Positions 52,562 to 64,000 of a stretch of 64,000 bases of DNA are shown piece after piece. Position 1 is the stretch's first letter; every line of letters starts with the position of its first letter. The notes under the pieces are model-generated. The model was not told the origin of the DNA. It worked only from the letters and a program-made list of their open reading frames with translations, and made no database searches. Origin of the DNA: Hutsoniella sourekii ATCC 700629 (GTDB lineage Bacteria > Bacillota > Bacilli > Lactobacillales > Aerococcaceae); NCBI RefSeq assembly GCF_000518205.1, contig NZ_JADD01000003.1, forward strand, positions 1-64,000. Reading direction: 5' to 3'. Both the position numbers and the translations under genes were made by a program.

Positions 52562-52934
52562 TAAGTAAACTTATTTAAGCCATGTTCTGTCAAGATTAAG
52601 TTTAGGCCAACTTAATCCGGGTAATTATCTATCTATACACGCCTGTGTATCTCTTTCTTTGGTTGAATTCCTACTGGAAAGAGTGCCCCGACCAAAGTTT
52701 GGGTTGCTCACTCGAGGGGTTTACCAACGTTCCACTCTTAGTGTTTCCACTAAGACTCGTCTCTGTGGCACTTTATGGCTTACTGAACCTTAGATGGACC
52801 TTAGGTTGTTCTGCCGCCGTTAAATGAATACCTTAGCTTATTGTTTCGCTAAGCACGAACACTACAAGCATCTCAGCTTGTGTGAGCATGGACTTTCCTC
52901 AGCATACTGCCGCAATTACCATAAGCTTACTTAC
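52562..52934 (-). ncRNA. rnpB: RNase P RNA, class B
   Basis: The catalytic RNA that trims tRNA 5' ends. Conserved blocks on the minus strand, in order: GAGGAAAGTCCATGCTC (helix P4 5' side and flank), GAGATGCTTGTAGTGTTCGT, and near the 3' end ACAGAACATGGCTT (P4 3' side). The first block is close to the B. subtilis sequence. The ends are set by pairing of the 5' segment (52921-52933) with the 3' segment (about 52563-52575), one G-U pair in 13. A terminator follows. Its place next to gpsB is common in Firmicutes. Confidence 0.95.
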
Positions 52935-56488: not shown

Positions 56489-56520
56489 AGAATAATTACA
56501 ATAATTGAGGAGTGGATATT

Positions 56521-58716
56521 ATGGCCCAACAACGTGATCTAACCGGTCAAGAAGTCATTGATCTATGTAAGGAATATATGAACGATTCCAATGTTGCTAA
56601 AGTTGAAAAAGCACTAGAAATGGCCACACTAGCCCATAAAGATCAATATCGTCTATCCGGGGAGCCTTATATCATCCATCCCATTCAAGTTGCTGGTATC
56701 CTCGCATTAATGCATGCCGATCCAGATACAGTGGCTACCGGATTTCTCCATGATGTGGTTGAAGATACGGACTATACCATTGAAGATATTCGCTCTGAAT
56801 TTTCTGATTCGATCGCATTCTTAGTGGATGGTGTCACTAAGTTAGGGAAGTTCAAGTTTCAAAGTAAGGAAGAAGCTTTAGCTGAAAATCACCGCAAGAT
56901 GCTGTTAGCGATGGCAAAGGATATGCGGGTTATTATCGTGAAACTAGCCGACCGTCTACATAATATGCGCACAATGAAATTCCAAAAGCCAGAAAAACAA
57001 GTTGAAAAATCTCAAGAAGCGCTTGAAATATACGCTCCCCTGGCAGACCGTATTGGGATGAGCAATCTTAAGTGGGAGCTTGAAGATATTTCCTTGCGGT
57101 ACACCAATCCAGAAGCTTACTACCAAATTGTTGAGAAAATGAATAGTAAACGCGTTGAACGGGTTGGTTATATTCAAGAGACTATTCAACAAATCCAATC
57201 AGCCTTAGGTGAACTGGATATTGAAGCCGAAGTGTACGGTAGACCCAAGCATATTTATTCCATCTACCGCAAAATGGTTGATCAGAAAAAAGAATTTGAT
57301 GATATTTTTGACCTACTAGCGGTAAGGGTATTAGTTGATACGGTCAAAGATTGTTATGCGGTGTTAGGGGCGGTTCATACAAAATGGAAGCCGATGCCTG
57401 GGCGATTCAAGGACTATATTGCCATGCCTAAGGCCAATATGTATCAATCCATTCATACGACAGTGATTGGCCCTAAGGGAAAGCCTGTGGAAATTCAAAT
57501 TCGTACCCACCAAATGCATGAAGTGGCAGAATATGGGGTGGCTGCCCACTGGGCTTATAAAGAAGGTGTCACTGAAAAAATTGAGACCGAAGATAATATT
57601 CAAAAGCAACTAAAATGGTTCCGAGATTTAGTGGAACTGCAAGATGAAGCTAAAGATGCCAGCGAATTTATGGATTTTGTTAAAGAGGATATCTTTAAAG
57701 ACCAAGTCTATATCTTTACTCCTAATGGGGATGTGATTGAGTTACCTAAAGGAGCCGGTCCAATTGACTTTGCCTATCATATTCATACAGAAATTGGTAA
57801 TAAAACGGTAGGAGCCAAAGTAAACGGAAACATTGTTTCCTTGGATTACAAGCTTAAGAACGGCGATATAGTTGAAGTCTTAACCAATTCGAATTCCCCA
57901 GGACCAAGTCGCGACTGGTTAAAAGTTACGGCGACCAGTAAGGCTAGGAACCGGATCAAACGTTACTTCAAAACGGAGAACAAAGAAGAAAACGCCCATA
58001 TCGGTCAGCAGCAACTTGAAACAGAACTAAAGAAAAATGGCCATACGATGAAAGAAATCGAAAAGAGACGGGTTGAGGATGATCTAAAAACTCGTTTCAA
58101 CTTTAATTCGATGGAAGATCTGTATGCGGCGATTGGTTTGGGAGAAATTTCAGCTACAAATATTGTTAATTATCTAGGATTAAGAGCTGAAGAAGAGAAG
58201 GTCCCAGAAGATCCTAGCTCCATTCAAAAGCAAAGTCACCGCCCTCATCAGCGGACAATTGATGATAGTGGTGTGGTCGTTGAAGGGGCAGATAATTTAA
58301 TGATTCGCTTGAGCCGCTGCTGTAACCCGGTTCCTGGCGATGATATTATTGGCTATATCACCAGAGGGAGAGGGATTTCTGTCCATCGCAGTGATTGTCC
58401 TAACCTTAAAGGGGAAGAAGATTTATCTAATCGGACCATAGCAGTCCACTGGTTTAATGAGGAAGATGAGACAGAACAATACGAAACTGAAATTAAGATT
58501 ATTGGCTTTAACCGCAATGGTTTAGTTAATGATATTCTTCATATGGTCAATAATACGGGCCAGTCTCTTATTAGTGTAAATGGTAAATCGGATCAAAATA
58601 GTAATGCTGTAGTTAATATAAAAGTTTCTGTCGCCAATACCAAACAATTAAAGGATTTAATGAATAAATTAGGTAACATCCCAGATGTTTATCGGGTTCA
58701 ACGAGTCGTAAGTTAG
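56521..58716 (+). CDS. rel: Bifunctional (p)ppGpp synthetase/hydrolase
   Basis: Makes and breaks the stringent-response alarmones. The protein is 731 residues, full length. The hydrolase HD domain (about 45-195) carries HDVVEDTDYT. The synthetase domain (about 235-350) has VYGRPKHIYSIYRKM, DIFDLLAVRVLVD and YQSIHTTVIGP. The TGS domain (about 395-455) begins VYIFTPNGDVIELPKGA. A zinc-finger-like part with CCNPVPGDDIIG and a C-terminal ACT domain follow. Both catalytic halves look intact. ATG 56521 is chosen after GAGGAG. It is followed by dtd after 12 bases, as in many Firmicutes. Confidence 0.96.
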   Translation: MAQQRDLTGQEVIDLCKEYMNDSNVAKVEKALEMATLAHKDQYRLSGEPYIIHPIQVAGILALMHADPDTVATGFLHDVVEDTDYTIEDIRSEFSDSIAFLVDGVTKLGKFKFQSKEEALAENHRKMLLAMAKDMRVIIVKLADRLHNMRTMKFQKPEKQVEKSQEALEIYAPLADRIGMSNLKWELEDISLRYTNPEAYYQIVEKMNSKRVERVGYIQETIQQIQSALGELDIEAEVYGRPKHIYSIYRKMVDQKKEFDDIFDLLAVRVLVDTVKDCYAVLGAVHTKWKPMPGRFKDYIAMPKANMYQSIHTTVIGPKGKPVEIQIRTHQMHEVAEYGVAAHWAYKEGVTEKIETEDNIQKQLKWFRDLVELQDEAKDASEFMDFVKEDIFKDQVYIFTPNGDVIELPKGAGPIDFAYHIHTEIGNKTVGAKVNGNIVSLDYKLKNGDIVEVLTNSNSPGPSRDWLKVTATSKARNRIKRYFKTENKEENAHIGQQQLETELKKNGHTMKEIEKRRVEDDLKTRFNFNSMEDLYAAIGLGEISATNIVNYLGLRAEEEKVPEDPSSIQKQSHRPHQRTIDDSGVVVEGADNLMIRLSRCCNPVPGDDIIGYITRGRGISVHRSDCPNLKGEEDLSNRTIAVHWFNEEDETEQYETEIKIIGFNRNGLVNDILHMVNNTGQSLISVNGKSDQNSNAVVNIKVSVANTKQLKDLMNKLGNIPDVYRVQRVVS

Positions 58717-58728
58717 AAAGGAGATCCT

Positions 58729-59181
58729 ATGCGAGTCATTATTCAAAAGGTATCACAAGGGCGAGTCGAAATCGCAGGTCAAGTGGTCGGCTCCATCAAT
58801 CAAGGATTTGTATTATTGGTGGGAGTTTGCCAAGAGGATAGTGAAGAGGATGTTCAGTATCTGGCTCGAAAGATTTCAAAAATGAGGATTTTCGAAGATA
58901 AAGACGGTAAGACTAATTTAGATTTAGCAGCTGTGGAAGGACAAATATTGTCGATCAGTCAATTTACCTTGTACGCTAACACAAAAAAAGGCAATCGACC
59001 TAGTTTTACGCGGGCCGGAAACCCAGAGTTAGCAGAGTCATTATATCTCAAGCTTAACCAATCATTAAGAGATTTAGGTTTTGATGTTGAAGAAGGTAAA
59101 TTTGGAGCAGATATGCAGGTTTATCTAGTCAATGATGGTCCGATGACCATTATCCTTGACTCACAAAATAAAGATTTATAA
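58729..59181 (+). CDS. dtd: D-aminoacyl-tRNA deacylase
   Basis: Removes D-amino acids from mischarged tRNA. The protein is 150 residues, typical. Motifs: MRVIIQKVSQGRVEI at the start, SQFTLYANTKKGNRPSF (about residues 78-94) and NDGPMTIILDS (near 137), containing the conserved G-P-x-T element that excludes L-amino acids. It is co-transcribed with rel. GAAAGGAGAT precedes the ATG. Confidence 0.96.
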   Translation: MRVIIQKVSQGRVEIAGQVVGSINQGFVLLVGVCQEDSEEDVQYLARKISKMRIFEDKDGKTNLDLAAVEGQILSISQFTLYANTKKGNRPSFTRAGNPELAESLYLKLNQSLRDLGFDVEEGKFGADMQVYLVNDGPMTIILDSQNKDL

Positions 59182-59228
59182 TAAATAAGCGACTGAAGTC
59201 CTAATAAAGGACCCAGTCGCTTATTTTA
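59182..59228. terminator. Bidirectional intrinsic terminator
   Basis: AAATAAGCGACTG and CAGTCGCTTATTT pair outside an inner GTCCT/AGGAC helix, and T-rich or A-rich sequence follows on both sides. Confidence 0.88.
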
Positions 59229-60593
59229 TTAATTTTCTAATTTCTCAGAAAAATAATCCTCAAGACCAGCAATGATTTGGTCTGTCATGGCGTCGTGGTA
59301 ATCGACTGACCGGATTTGTTCTAAGTCTTCTTGATTAGACATGTAACCTAATTCCAACAAGATAGACGGGCGTGTATTTTCTCTGAGTACATAATAGTTT
59401 CCAAAATTTATTCCATTGTTTGGCAGATTTAATTCTTTGAGCCGGTTATTAACTGCTCGTGCTAGGGGTTCATCAGCTTCATGGAAATAATAAGTGGTTG
59501 TCCCGTGCCAATCAGCTACAGGTGAGGCATCAAAGTGCATACTGATAAAGATATCGGCTTGAGCTTCTTGGCTGGTTCCTGTTATATCCGGGAAGTCTAC
59601 CAAGCGGTCTTCTTGTCTTGTCATTACGACTTGGGCCCCTAATTTTTCAAGTTTTTCTTTTAACATGAGGCCACTCTTAAGCGCGACTTCTTTCTCGTAA
59701 GTCTGTCCATCATCACTTATGGCTCCGGGATCACTCCCTCCATGACCTGGATCAATGACAATAGTTGCTTCTGCAATTGATTTGGCGTCCGTTGAGCCAA
59801 TATGATTATTCGAAGCATTACCAAAAGCAGCAATCCGAGATTCCAGGTATCCAATATTACCGTTCTCATCTTCAACCTTGTAGAACTCTTCGCCACTAGC
59901 AGAATCATAACTCTCAATAAATTTAAATCGTTGCATCAAATGAGGAGAATAAATAATTTCTGAATTAATATCAGGTTGGCTTAAGAAGGCTTGGTTGGAT
60001 TGACGAACAATAACCAAGTGACTCAGGTCGGTCTGGGGTTCAGTTTGATTTTCAGGCTTTTCACGTTTGACTTGAGACTGGTCCATCAACTCTACTTCTT
60101 GTAATTGGACGTAACCGATTTGGTCTTTGTAATCGACTTGAATCCAGCCACCTGCTTCAAAGTTGGCTATTAATTCGGTATTAGTTGGTATAACAGCTAG
60201 GCGGTCACTTTGACTATCGGCTTCTTTATGTAAAGTCGTCTCACCTTTTGTAATGAGGGCGAGATTTTGATCGGTTTGAATCTCCGGATGGTCAATTAGC
60301 CATTGAGGCACCCAGCCTTTGTGGCTTTTGGTTTGAATTTTAAGCCAATGGTCTTGTTGATCTATCAAGTAAATCTCTTGGCCTTCTGATAGGTCTTCAA
60401 TTTTTTGAGCATTGGTAGCTGGCTTACTTCTTAGTACTAAGCCGGGTCGACTAATCGTAATGCTCGAGTTAGAGGTCATAACCTTTAGGGTTATGCAAGA
60501 GAATAATAGAATCGTTAAGGTCAAAATCGGAGGAAAGAATTTCTGTGTAAAGATTTTGGATAGAATGGATTTAACTTGACTAATGCTAATCAC
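59229..60593 (-). CDS. N-acetylmuramoyl-L-alanine amidase with SH3b domains
   Basis: A cell-wall hydrolase of the amidase_3 family, about 454 residues from the GTG at 60593. An N-terminal membrane anchor or signal (about 20-40) is followed by SH3b repeats (RPGLVLRSKPATNAQKIEDL; GETTLHKEADSQSDRLAVI; and a third). The catalytic zinc domain is at the C-terminus: IVIDPGHGGSDPGA (first His), Glu in TYEKEVALKS, ISMHFDAS (His) and catalytic Glu in ILLELGYMSNQED. The start is uncertain. The GTG overlaps AAGGAG; an ATG at 60680 would add 29 hydrophobic residues but has no ribosome site and lies in promoter-like sequence. Confidence 0.85.
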   Translation of the reverse strand: MISISQVKSILSKIFTQKFFPPILTLTILLFSCITLKVMTSNSSITISRPGLVLRSKPATNAQKIEDLSEGQEIYLIDQQDHWLKIQTKSHKGWVPQWLIDHPEIQTDQNLALITKGETTLHKEADSQSDRLAVIPTNTELIANFEAGGWIQVDYKDQIGYVQLQEVELMDQSQVKREKPENQTEPQTDLSHLVIVRQSNQAFLSQPDINSEIIYSPHLMQRFKFIESYDSASGEEFYKVEDENGNIGYLESRIAAFGNASNNHIGSTDAKSIAEATIVIDPGHGGSDPGAISDDGQTYEKEVALKSGLMLKEKLEKLGAQVVMTRQEDRLVDFPDITGTSQEAQADIFISMHFDASPVADWHGTTTYYFHEADEPLARAVNNRLKELNLPNNGINFGNYYVLRENTRPSILLELGYMSNQEDLEQIRSVDYHDAMTDQIIAGLEDYFSEKLEN

Positions 60594-60746
60594 TCCTTGT
60601 CTAAATAGATAGCCTATAATTAATAGAAAGGGGAGTGGATAATAATAGGCGGTTGCTTGGATACTAAGTATAATATACATAGTATATTGTAACTTAATCT
60701 TAATTAAATAGATAGCCTAAAAATCGCCCTAGCTTGGCTTTCATTC

Positions 60747-60775
60747 TTGACAATCAGGGGTAAAATCGGTAAATT
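60747..60775 (+). promoter_or_regulatory. Promoter for hisS-aspS T-box transcript
   Basis: A perfect TTGACA (60747-60752), a 17-base spacer and TAAATT (60770-60775). Confidence 0.65.
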
Positions 60776-60784
60776 AATAAAGAA

Positions 60785-60990
60785 TAATATCAATGAAGTA
60801 GCTAAGTAGTCTCAATGACAGAGAATAACCGTTTGCTGAGAGGTTATAGGAGATGAAGACACTATGGAGATGAATAAGCAAAACTTATTCCGCTATTCGG
60901 CGTTATCGATTAAGGTAGTATTTTTACTATGAAAATAGGTGGTACCACGCGACAGCGTCCTATGGCGATTTTGCCGTAGGATTTTTTATT
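60785..60990 (+). promoter_or_regulatory. T-box riboswitch upstream of hisS-aspS
   Basis: The leader contains the T-box sequence AGGTGGTACCACG (60937-60949) that reads the tRNA CCA end, followed by a terminator (TCCTATGGC at 60958-60966 with GCCGTAGGA at 60973-60981, then TTTTTT). Stem I lies upstream, with an AGTA/GAA loop-E pair (about 60803 and 60855) flanking the specifier loop. The loop reads GAAGACAC, containing GAC (Asp, 60858-60860) and the overlapping CAC (His, 60860-60862), fitting the two downstream synthetases. Uncharged tRNA would stabilise the antiterminator. Confidence 0.9.
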
Positions 60991-61009
60991 TTAATAGAGG
61001 AGGATTCGT

Positions 61010-62332
61010 GTGATTCAAAAAATGAAAGGGACGGAAGATATTCTTCCTGGACAGTCCTATCGTTGGCAGTATGTTGAAGACTTGGCTCGTGATTTGTTTG
61101 ATAGTTACCAATTCCATGAAATTCGAACACCCATGTTTGAAGCTTATGAATTATTTGCCCGTTCGGTCGGTGATACGAGTGATATTGTATCCAAGGAAAT
61201 GTATGATTTCTATGACAAGGGCGATCGGCATTTAGCGCTTAGACCGGAAGGAACAGCTCCTGTCGTTCGTGCTTATGTTGAGCATAAGTTATTTGGCCCA
61301 GAATACCTTAAACCTTATAAAGTATATTATATGGGCCCCATGTTTCGCTATGAAAGACCCCAAGCTGGCCGTCAACGTCAATTTCATCAATTGGGTGTTG
61401 AAGTATTCGAAAGTTCTAACCCAGCAACAGATGTTGAGGCAATCGCTTTAGCCTGGGACTTTTTCCAAGAATTAGGCGTTAGAAACCTAAAGATTTACAT
61501 CAATTCTCTGGGTAAAAATGAGGAGCGAGCTCAGTATCGACAAGCTCTAATTGATTACTTTACACCACTGAAGGAACAATTAAGTCCCGATTCACAAAAT
61601 CGTTTATCGGCCAATCCGATGCGGATTATTGATAGTAAAGATCCTAAAGATCAAGAGTTAGCTATTAATGCGCCTAAAATCTTAGATTATTTAGGAGAAG
61701 AAAGTAAAGCTCATTTTCAAGCGGTTCAAGATTACTTGCAAGCCTTAGAGATTCCCTTCCAAGTAGATCCAACCATTGTACGTGGACTTGATTATTATCA
61801 AGATACAATTTTTGAGATTATTGTTGAAGATGATTCGATTGGTGCTCAATCAACCGTTTGTGGTGGGGGACGTTACGATGGATTATCTAAGCAATTAGGT
61901 GGCCCAGCGTCTCCTGGATTTGGATTTGCCATTGGTATGGAAAGACTGTTACTTTTATTGGATCAACAGTCAGTTGAAATCCCAGAACCGGATCCTTTAG
62001 ATTTATATGTCTTGGGACTGGGTGATGAAGTTAATTTAGTGAGTCTACAATTGGTTCAAGCAGCCAGAGGCGAAGGTTACTCGGCTGAACGTGATTATCT
62101 GGGTCGTAGCTTGAAATCTCAGTACAAGACCGTTGACCGCTTGAATGCGGTATTAGTTGCTACAGTGGGAAGCAATGAATTAGAGTCAGGACAATTAACC
62201 ATTAAAAATCAAAAAACAGGGAAGACTTTTGATGTTCAGTTATCAGATTTACTTTCAGATTTTGCCAGCTATTATCGCAAGTTTACCCAAGACACTTCCG
62301 TGATTGATGAATTTTTTAAAGGAGGCTATTAA
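61010..62332 (+). CDS. hisS: Histidyl-tRNA synthetase
   Basis: A class II synthetase that charges tRNA-His. The protein is 440 residues with a GTG start after GAGGAGG. The N-terminus MIQKMKGTEDILPG is typical. Motif 1 is near 60, motif 2 is MFRYERPQAGRQRQFHQ (near 112) and the His-specific loop GLDYYQDTIFEI is near 260. Motif 3 is GFGFAIGMERLLLLL (near 303). A C-terminal anticodon-binding domain follows (about 330-425). It is controlled by the T-box and co-transcribed with aspS. Confidence 0.97.
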   Translation: MIQKMKGTEDILPGQSYRWQYVEDLARDLFDSYQFHEIRTPMFEAYELFARSVGDTSDIVSKEMYDFYDKGDRHLALRPEGTAPVVRAYVEHKLFGPEYLKPYKVYYMGPMFRYERPQAGRQRQFHQLGVEVFESSNPATDVEAIALAWDFFQELGVRNLKIYINSLGKNEERAQYRQALIDYFTPLKEQLSPDSQNRLSANPMRIIDSKDPKDQELAINAPKILDYLGEESKAHFQAVQDYLQALEIPFQVDPTIVRGLDYYQDTIFEIIVEDDSIGAQSTVCGGGRYDGLSKQLGGPASPGFGFAIGMERLLLLLDQQSVEIPEPDPLDLYVLGLGDEVNLVSLQLVQAARGEGYSAERDYLGRSLKSQYKTVDRLNAVLVATVGSNELESGQLTIKNQKTGKTFDVQLSDLLSDFASYYRKFTQDTSVIDEFFKGGY

Positions 62333-62337
62333 TTATT

Positions 62338-64000
62338 ATGAAGAAGAGAAGCCAGTATGCAGGTTTAGTAAGTCAAGTTAACGTCGGCCAAGTGATAACC
62401 CTTAAAGGTTGGGTTCAAAGACGTCGGGACTTAGGTGGAGTTATTTTTATCGATCTTAGAGATCGCGAAGGTATCTGTCAAGTTGTCTTTAACGCTGAAA
62501 ACCTTTCAGATGAAGACTTTCAAGCAGCTGACCACTTAAGAAGTGAATATGTGGTTGAAGTAACGGGGGAATTAATTGAACGTTCTAGCGATCAAGTAAA
62601 CCCGAACTTGAAGACAGGACAGTTTGAGTTAATGGCTCAAGAATTAAATGTTCTAGCCAAGAGTAAAACGCCACCTTTCTATATTGAAGACGCTATTGAA
62701 ACAGACGAGGAAGTTCGCTTACGCCACCGCTTCTTGGACCTACGTCGTCCAGAAATGCTGGCTAATATTCGCTTGCGTCATGATGTGGTTCAAGCTATTC
62801 GCTCTTATTTGAATCGTTTGGATTTTATTGATGTGGAAACCCCTTATCTAACAAAATCTACTCCTGAAGGAGCCAGAGACTATCTAGTTCCAACCCGTAG
62901 AGAAGCGGGAGCCTTCTATGCCTTGCCACAATCACCTCAATTGTTTAAGCAATTATTGATGGGTGCCGGTATTGATCGGTATTATCAAATTGTTCGTTGT
63001 TTTAGAGATGAGGATCTAAGAGGGGATCGTCAACCTGAATTTACTCAAGTCGATTTAGAAACAAGTTTCTTGAGTCAAGAAGAAATTCAAGAGATTGTTG
63101 AAGGAATGTTGAAGGAAGTTGTCTTAACTACTCGAGGCGAAAAGATTGAACAAGCCTTTCCTACTATTACTTATCAAGAAGCAATGGACCAATACGGAAC
63201 TGACAAACCAGATATTCGTTTTGGCTTGAAGTTGAAGGATGTATCTGATGTCGTAGTTAAGTCTGATTTCACGGTATTTAAGGGAGCAGTCGAAAGAGGT
63301 GGCCAAGTTAAGGCCATTAATTTAAAGGGACTGGCTGATAGTTATACGCGTAAGACTGCAGATGATTTGATTTCTGTTGTTAAACCTTATGGGGCCAAAG
63401 GTCTAGCGTGGGCTAAAGTGACTGAAGAAGGCTTTACAGGACCTATTGCTAAGTTCTTTAATATCGATGGCTTGTATGACGAGATGGTTGAGGCTTTAGA
63501 TGCAGAGCTTGGAGATATTATCTTCTTTATGGCTGATTCAGCCAGCGTGGTTGCTAATTCTTTGGCCGAACTTCGTAATTATTTTGGTAAAGTTCATGAC
63601 TTATATGACCCTAAAGAACTGGCCTTTGTCTGGGTAACGGATTGGCCACTGCTAGAATATGATGAAGATGCCAAGCGTTATGTAGCTATGCACCATCCAT
63701 TCACCTCACCACAAAATGACCAAGTAGCTGAACTCAAAGAAAATCCAGGTCAAGCTCTAGCTAATGCCTACGATGTTGTCTTAAACGGCTATGAAATTGG
63801 TGGCGGATCCATCCGTATCCATACGCGTGAAATGCAAGAGCAAATGTTCGAACTACTTGGATTTACACCTGCTGAAGCAGAAAGTCAATTTGGCTTCTTG
63901 TTAGAAGCCTTTGACTATGGATTCCCTCCTCATGGAGGTCTGGCACTTGGACTTGATCGCTTGGTTATGATCCTTGCTGGTCAACCAAATATCCGTGAAG
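62338..64000 (+). CDS. aspS: Aspartyl-tRNA synthetase, partial (3' end outside window)
   Basis: A class IIb synthetase; about 554 residues are visible before the window edge, out of some 590. The N-terminal OB-fold anticodon domain has TLKGWVQRRRDLGGVIFIDLRD. Motif 1 contains TPEGARDYLVPTR. Motif 2 is IVRCFRDEDLRGDRQPEF (near 220). The bacterial GAD insertion spans about 300-420. Motif 3 includes GLALGLDRLVMIL, very close to the edge. ATG 62338 lies after AAAGGAGG, five bases beyond hisS. The missing C-terminus is due to the window end. Confidence 0.97.
   Translation, partial: MKKRSQYAGLVSQVNVGQVITLKGWVQRRRDLGGVIFIDLRDREGICQVVFNAENLSDEDFQAADHLRSEYVVEVTGELIERSSDQVNPNLKTGQFELMAQELNVLAKSKTPPFYIEDAIETDEEVRLRHRFLDLRRPEMLANIRLRHDVVQAIRSYLNRLDFIDVETPYLTKSTPEGARDYLVPTRREAGAFYALPQSPQLFKQLLMGAGIDRYYQIVRCFRDEDLRGDRQPEFTQVDLETSFLSQEEIQEIVEGMLKEVVLTTRGEKIEQAFPTITYQEAMDQYGTDKPDIRFGLKLKDVSDVVVKSDFTVFKGAVERGGQVKAINLKGLADSYTRKTADDLISVVKPYGAKGLAWAKVTEEGFTGPIAKFFNIDGLYDEMVEALDAELGDIIFFMADSASVVANSLAELRNYFGKVHDLYDPKELAFVWVTDWPLLEYDEDAKRYVAMHHPFTSPQNDQVAELKENPGQALANAYDVVLNGYEIGGGSIRIHTREMQEQMFELLGFTPAEAESQFGFLLEAFDYGFPPHGGLALGLDRLVMILAGQPNIRE

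Follow-up and report, generated by a model that had tools for sequence, protein, structure and literature searches.

INTRODUCTION

In T-box leaders of hisS-aspS operons, the sequence GACAC, in which an Asp codon and a His codon share one base, has been described as characteristic of bacilli and lactobacilli (PMC5313534, in the part of that source available to us, citing Gutierrez-Preciado 2009). The same source reports that the 2009 study suggested action mainly through tRNA-Asp, and the hisS-aspS leader of S. aureus has been termed a histidine T-box (PMC7927825, also available in part). Both the GACAC overlap in these T-boxes and the idea that they sense two tRNAs are already in print, as far as the accessible portions of these sources go. 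The literature that we searched, which included few subscription papers, yielded no experiment testing which tRNA a hisS-aspS leader recognizes. A related case is the two-codon T-box of Saad et al. (2013), whose specifier loop likewise holds more than one codon; according to its title that RNA binds two tRNAs, whereas in the leader described here the second triplet is partly paired.

Here we analyzed the hisS-aspS leader of Hutsoniella sourekii ATCC 700629 (Bacilli, Lactobacillales, Aerococcaceae), which lies in a 64,000-nucleotide stretch (contig NZ_JADD01000003.1, positions 1 to 64,000 of the forward strand) referred to below as the window. An earlier note on this DNA had proposed that one leader could respond to tRNA-Asp, tRNA-His or both. 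In its operon, its GACAC sequence and the Asp-versus-His question that it poses, the leader is the same as the published T-boxes (Gutierrez-Preciado et al. 2009), and we found no difference from them, going by that work as cited in PMC5313534 and PMC4342826. What we add to these published cases is a tally over relatives, the observation that the third base of the His triplet is paired, and a comparison of the UGGN bulge.

RESULTS

Anatomy of the leader

The Rfam T-box model (RF00230) matched positions 60784 to 60965 of the plus strand, from stem I to the antiterminator region, with 103.3 bits (E 1.1e-21; gathering score 93), as one of 25 T-box matches in the genome. Upstream lies a sigma-70-like promoter candidate, TTGACA-17-TAAATT (60747 to 60775, plus strand), a consensus match only; such matches numbered 2 in the region against 1.8 in shuffled sequences. 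In stem I, GUAG (60798 to 60801) is the 5' half of the helix under the specifier loop. Of the loop E motif that follows, AGUA (60805 to 60808) forms the 5' side and GAA (60855 to 60857) the 3' side, the latter opening the specifier loop region GAAGACAC (60855 to 60862). The T-box core GGUGGUACC occupies 60938 to 60946, with UGGN at 60940 to 60943 and U as its variable base. An intrinsic terminator with an 11-pair hairpin (60957 to 60982) and a T-rich tail ending at 60992 would compete with the antiterminator. The genes directly downstream and adjacent to each other are hisS (histidyl-tRNA synthetase, 61010 to 62332) and aspS (aspartyl-tRNA synthetase, 62338 to 63999, running off the window), both on the plus strand, as the earlier note had stated.

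The leader at 60784 to 60965 thus combines a model score above the gathering score, a stem I that has the AGUA/GAA loop E, a specifier and the conserved purine, and a UGGN bulge and terminator ahead of an aminoacyl-tRNA synthetase gene. Judged by these features it is an ordinary, well-formed transcriptional T-box, for which antitermination by uncharged tRNA is predicted.

The gene order rsh, dtd, amidase (minus strand), hisS, aspS (window 56512 to 63999) is the same in a Listeria monocytogenes record (L362); the names of the first three genes in the window, unlike those of hisS and aspS, were assigned by eye and are presumed.

GAC fills the slot and the end of CAC is paired

For the placement of the specifier we used, besides the Rfam model, a covariance model of stem I (R1) built from 25 hisS leaders with the window excluded. 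A home-made helix finder was dropped in favor of R1 since it misplaced many loops. Both models gave the same register: GAA, then GAC (60858 to 60860) in the canonical slot, then the conserved A60861, then the helix strand CUAU (60862 to 60865) paired with GUAG at 60798 to 60801. This fold, which the earlier note had asked for, bears out its placement of GAC behind loop E, and CAC indeed overlaps GAC by one base, the shared C60860. In the overlapping triplet (60860 to 60862), the specifier contributes its final base, the conserved A stands in the middle, and C60862, which opens the helix strand by pairing with G60801, comes last; behind the triplet stands U and not the conserved purine. The two triplets do not both lie wholly in the unpaired loop, the third base of CAC being held in a covarying pair.

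This pair was G-C in 39, C-G in 5, U-A in 4, A-U in 2 and another combination in 7 of 57 distinct family rows. Among the 62 class rows in which neither partner was a gap, the equivalent position was G-C in 32, A-U in 17, G-U in 1, U-A in 1 and otherwise in 11. The covariation score of the whole structure was reached by none of 500 shuffles, the alignments having been fitted to the structure, which favors it. Counting against this reading, energy-based folding of stem I by itself favored another pairing and gave the canonical helix a probability of about 0.02, and the minimum-free-energy structure likewise lacked the canonical fold. The energy model does not contain the non-canonical pairs of loop E, and we therefore relied on covariation rather than on the minimum-free-energy fold.

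The slot and the shifted triplet in relatives

HisRS was detected in 76/76 family and 250/250 class genomes. Leaders were taken from 70 family genomes (including that of the window and leaving out 6 of genus g5) and 88 other class genomes (161 of the 250 being left out), and 80 named loci were added; R1 matched 62/70, 71/89 and 45/80 of these sources, the 89 including one genome twice. After removal of 6 spurious model matches and reading of 7 leaders by hand, 174 deduplicated hisS leaders remained; L278 was set by hand, and L226 was omitted for too little upstream sequence. A pattern scan of 295 genomes for GAANCACA together with a T-box gave one match and no usable set, its spacing being too tight.

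The slot was GAC in 126 leaders, AAC in 47/174 and unread in one (L080). Behind GAC, the shifted triplet was CAC in 64 leaders, CAU in 20, CAA in 13, CAG in 9, CCU in 7, CUU in 5, CGA in 4, CCC in 3 and CGC in 1, so that the His triplet was lost in 42 of the 126. Behind AAC, it was CAC in 43, CAU in 3 and CGC in 1, a His triplet being kept in 46/47. A HisRS tree with 68 members of the family showed 7 changes of the His triplet and 4 switches of the slot between GAC and AAC; no leader (0/68) had neither an Asp nor a His triplet. Behind hisS, aspS was found in 67/68 of these rows, the exception being L294, for which only 704 bases were examined. Two species of genus g4 (L241 and L244) have AAC in the slot and a third (L235) has GAC, with CAC the same in all of them and aspS remaining downstream.

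Closer to the window the picture was more uniform. Its 28-member clade contained 24 leaders with GAC and CAC, 2 with AAC and CAC, 1 with GAC and CAU and 1 with GAC and CCC, so that both triplets were nearly constant there but not in the family or the class. However, the helix GUAG/CUAY was itself nearly invariant in 20 aligned members of the clade, and the constancy of CAC among them therefore says little. The earlier note had named free variation of one triplet among relatives as what would speak against two specifiers; such variation of CAC is what we observed in the wider family, though not in the 28-member clade.

The UGGN bulge and the tRNA discriminators

In the genome of the window, tRNA-Asp has G73, and tRNA-His has C73 with an encoded G-1 (positions read by eye). 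UGGU at 60940 to 60943 can pair with the GCCA end of tRNA-Asp, by a U-G wobble only, and cannot pair with C73; the leader thus has both GAC in the slot and a UGGN bulge able to accommodate G73. Across the 126 GAC leaders, the variable base was U in 86, C in 33 and unreadable in 7, that is, U or C in 119/119 readable cases, and in the 47 AAC leaders it was C in 19, U in 15 and A in 13. AACAC or AACAU together with UGGA was seen in the hisS leaders L103, L118, L134, L135, L162, L177, L178, L185 to L188, L191 and L211.

T-boxes with CAC in the slot itself belong to the same T-box class as the window's leader and served as a reference for true His specifiers; they include the hdc hisS leader of the Tetragenococcus plasmid pHDC-RI and leaders of the hisZ region. 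In these T-boxes (L360, L401, L409 to L412), two more bases precede the helix than in the window's leader, and CAC with the following A or G lies unpaired in the slot. Two of them, L411 and L412, also contain GACAC, which indicates that the register read depends on where the helix begins. The hisZ-region loci L410 to L412 score under the hisZ cut-off, which makes the gene name unsure, and the T-box reading is independent of it. The variable base of UGGN was A in 6, C in 1 and G in 1 of 8 CAC-slot T-boxes, and U in 0/8. The T-box database TBDB skipped the position-73 test for His T-boxes on the grounds that this base may form a pair inside the tRNA (PMC7778990, available in part). Since position 73 may be so paired in tRNA-His, the argument from the bulge is an empirical one, resting on few His cases. 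On the same plasmid, pHDC-RI, a match to a RatA-like antitoxin RNA was seen (L360, 5765 to 5856).

A CAC overlap is common in NNC T-boxes

R1 aligned 38 further T-boxes of the family, and 10 of these had an NNC specifier. Without the 2 that are true His T-boxes and a second match that was weak (E 0.14), 7 remained, and in 5 of them an A and then a C followed the specifier, giving an overlapping CAC. The leaders concerned have Arg (CGC) or Leu (CUC) specifiers, some downstream genes having been identified by eye. According to TBDB, 59.9% of T-boxes have NNC specifiers (PMC7778990, in its available part). The overlap results when a specifier with C as its third base is followed by the conserved A and then by the C that begins the helix in a C-G pair. 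A CAC overlap is therefore expected in NNC T-boxes and does not exceed chance for this RNA class, and its presence in a given leader calls for caution.

DISCUSSION

We consider it probable, with fairly high confidence, that the leader is a transcription-antitermination T-box with GAC as specifier that answers to tRNA-Asp, CAC normally not being read. By analogy with other T-boxes, the anticodon of uncharged tRNA-Asp(GUC) would pair with GAC at 60858 to 60860, and its GCCA end would pair with UGGU at 60940 to 60943 and stabilize the antiterminator. Formation of the terminator at 60957 to 60982 would then be prevented and hisS and aspS would be raised together, whereas histidine starvation alone, going by what is known of the family, would not be expected to induce the operon. 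This reading builds on the anatomy, the covariation, the non-conservation of CAC in wider relatives and the fit of the tRNA-Asp discriminator, all observed here. The second codon, CAC, is probably a by-product.

The earlier proposal of a response to tRNA-Asp holds up well on the slot, the relatives and UGGU, but its extension to a second tRNA fares worse. For the leader to sense both, tRNA-Asp would have to bind at GAC and tRNA-His, once the helix had opened at its first C-G pair, at CAC in the same loop, so that a shortage of either would raise both synthetases. The genes downstream, exactly those for HisRS and AspRS, suit this idea, as do the absence of family leaders lacking both triplets and the CAC or CAU that nearly all AAC leaders keep. 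Two alternative structures sensing both tRNAs have been proposed for the operon (PMC4342826, available in part, citing Gutierrez-Preciado 2009), and the lysK T-box is documented to answer two tRNAs (PMC2916919, also available in part). Nevertheless, the third base of CAC sits in a covarying pair and is followed by U rather than the conserved purine; UGGU appears not to fit C73, and U is absent from the 8 His T-boxes; and a third of the GAC leaders vary in this triplet, which changes repeatedly on the family tree. We therefore regard dual sensing, and with it CAC as a second specifier, as unlikely. It is much less probable still that the register is shifted, with CAC the specifier and GAC the by-product. 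The AACAC or AACAU leaders L103, L118, L134 and L135 (Lysinibacillus, Planococcus, Bhargavaea, Sporosarcina) do combine this sequence with UGGA, whose A is the variable base of most true His T-boxes, and one species of genus g4 has GAC in the slot where two others have AAC, with CAC unchanged. The window, however, has GAC and U at these positions, and relatives with the GAA-GAC anatomy keep GAC and lose CAC (CCC in L248, CAG in L254 and L266, CAA in L265).

A further reading places the leader in a series that switches between Asp and Asn, in which AspRS also charges tRNA-Asn and the slot moves between GAC and AAC, the window representing the Asp state. Its genome has no AsnRS over the cut-off and has GatB, and the AspRS encoded in the hisS-aspS operon is on that account presumably non-discriminating and charges tRNA-Asn. 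In the family, genomes without AsnRS hold 8/9 AAC leaders versus 14/60 GAC leaders (p 0.0003, uncorrected). On the other side, the slot changes only 4 times on the tree and 0/4 independent pairs were informative; the class has 0/23 AAC leaders in genomes without AsnRS, and the family AAC leader L275 comes from a genome with AsnRS. This reading, which we consider highly improbable, would in any case have no bearing on what the window itself reads.

The AACAC leaders of the hisS-aspS operon and, in the family, the uncorrected association of AAC with AsnRS loss are points that turned up in the course of this comparison. Two assignments of the AAC leaders were tried and rejected: an Asn specificity, which the triplet in the slot would predict, is supported by the family counts but fails in the class and when independent events are counted, and a His specificity, favored by counts, was not significant by phylogenetic events (8 pairs, median p 0.5). 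A speculative view, to which we give little weight, is that GACAC acts as an evolutionary hinge from which a leader may commit to Asp, with loss of CAC, or to His or Asn, as AACAC, without passing through a dead sensor; in GACAC leaders tRNA-His might then be a weaker second inducer of a two-input RNA. More generally, a true second specifier may be told from a by-product by the start of the helix and the base in UGGN, and not by the presence of the triplet.

Other structured RNAs were also seen. The window carries an RNase P RNA of bacterial class B (RF00011, 304 bits) at 52571 to 52927 on the minus strand, and in its genome a THF riboswitch and an M-box riboswitch adjoin T-boxes on the opposite strand (L004, 1251 to 1342; L010, 1242 to 1404).
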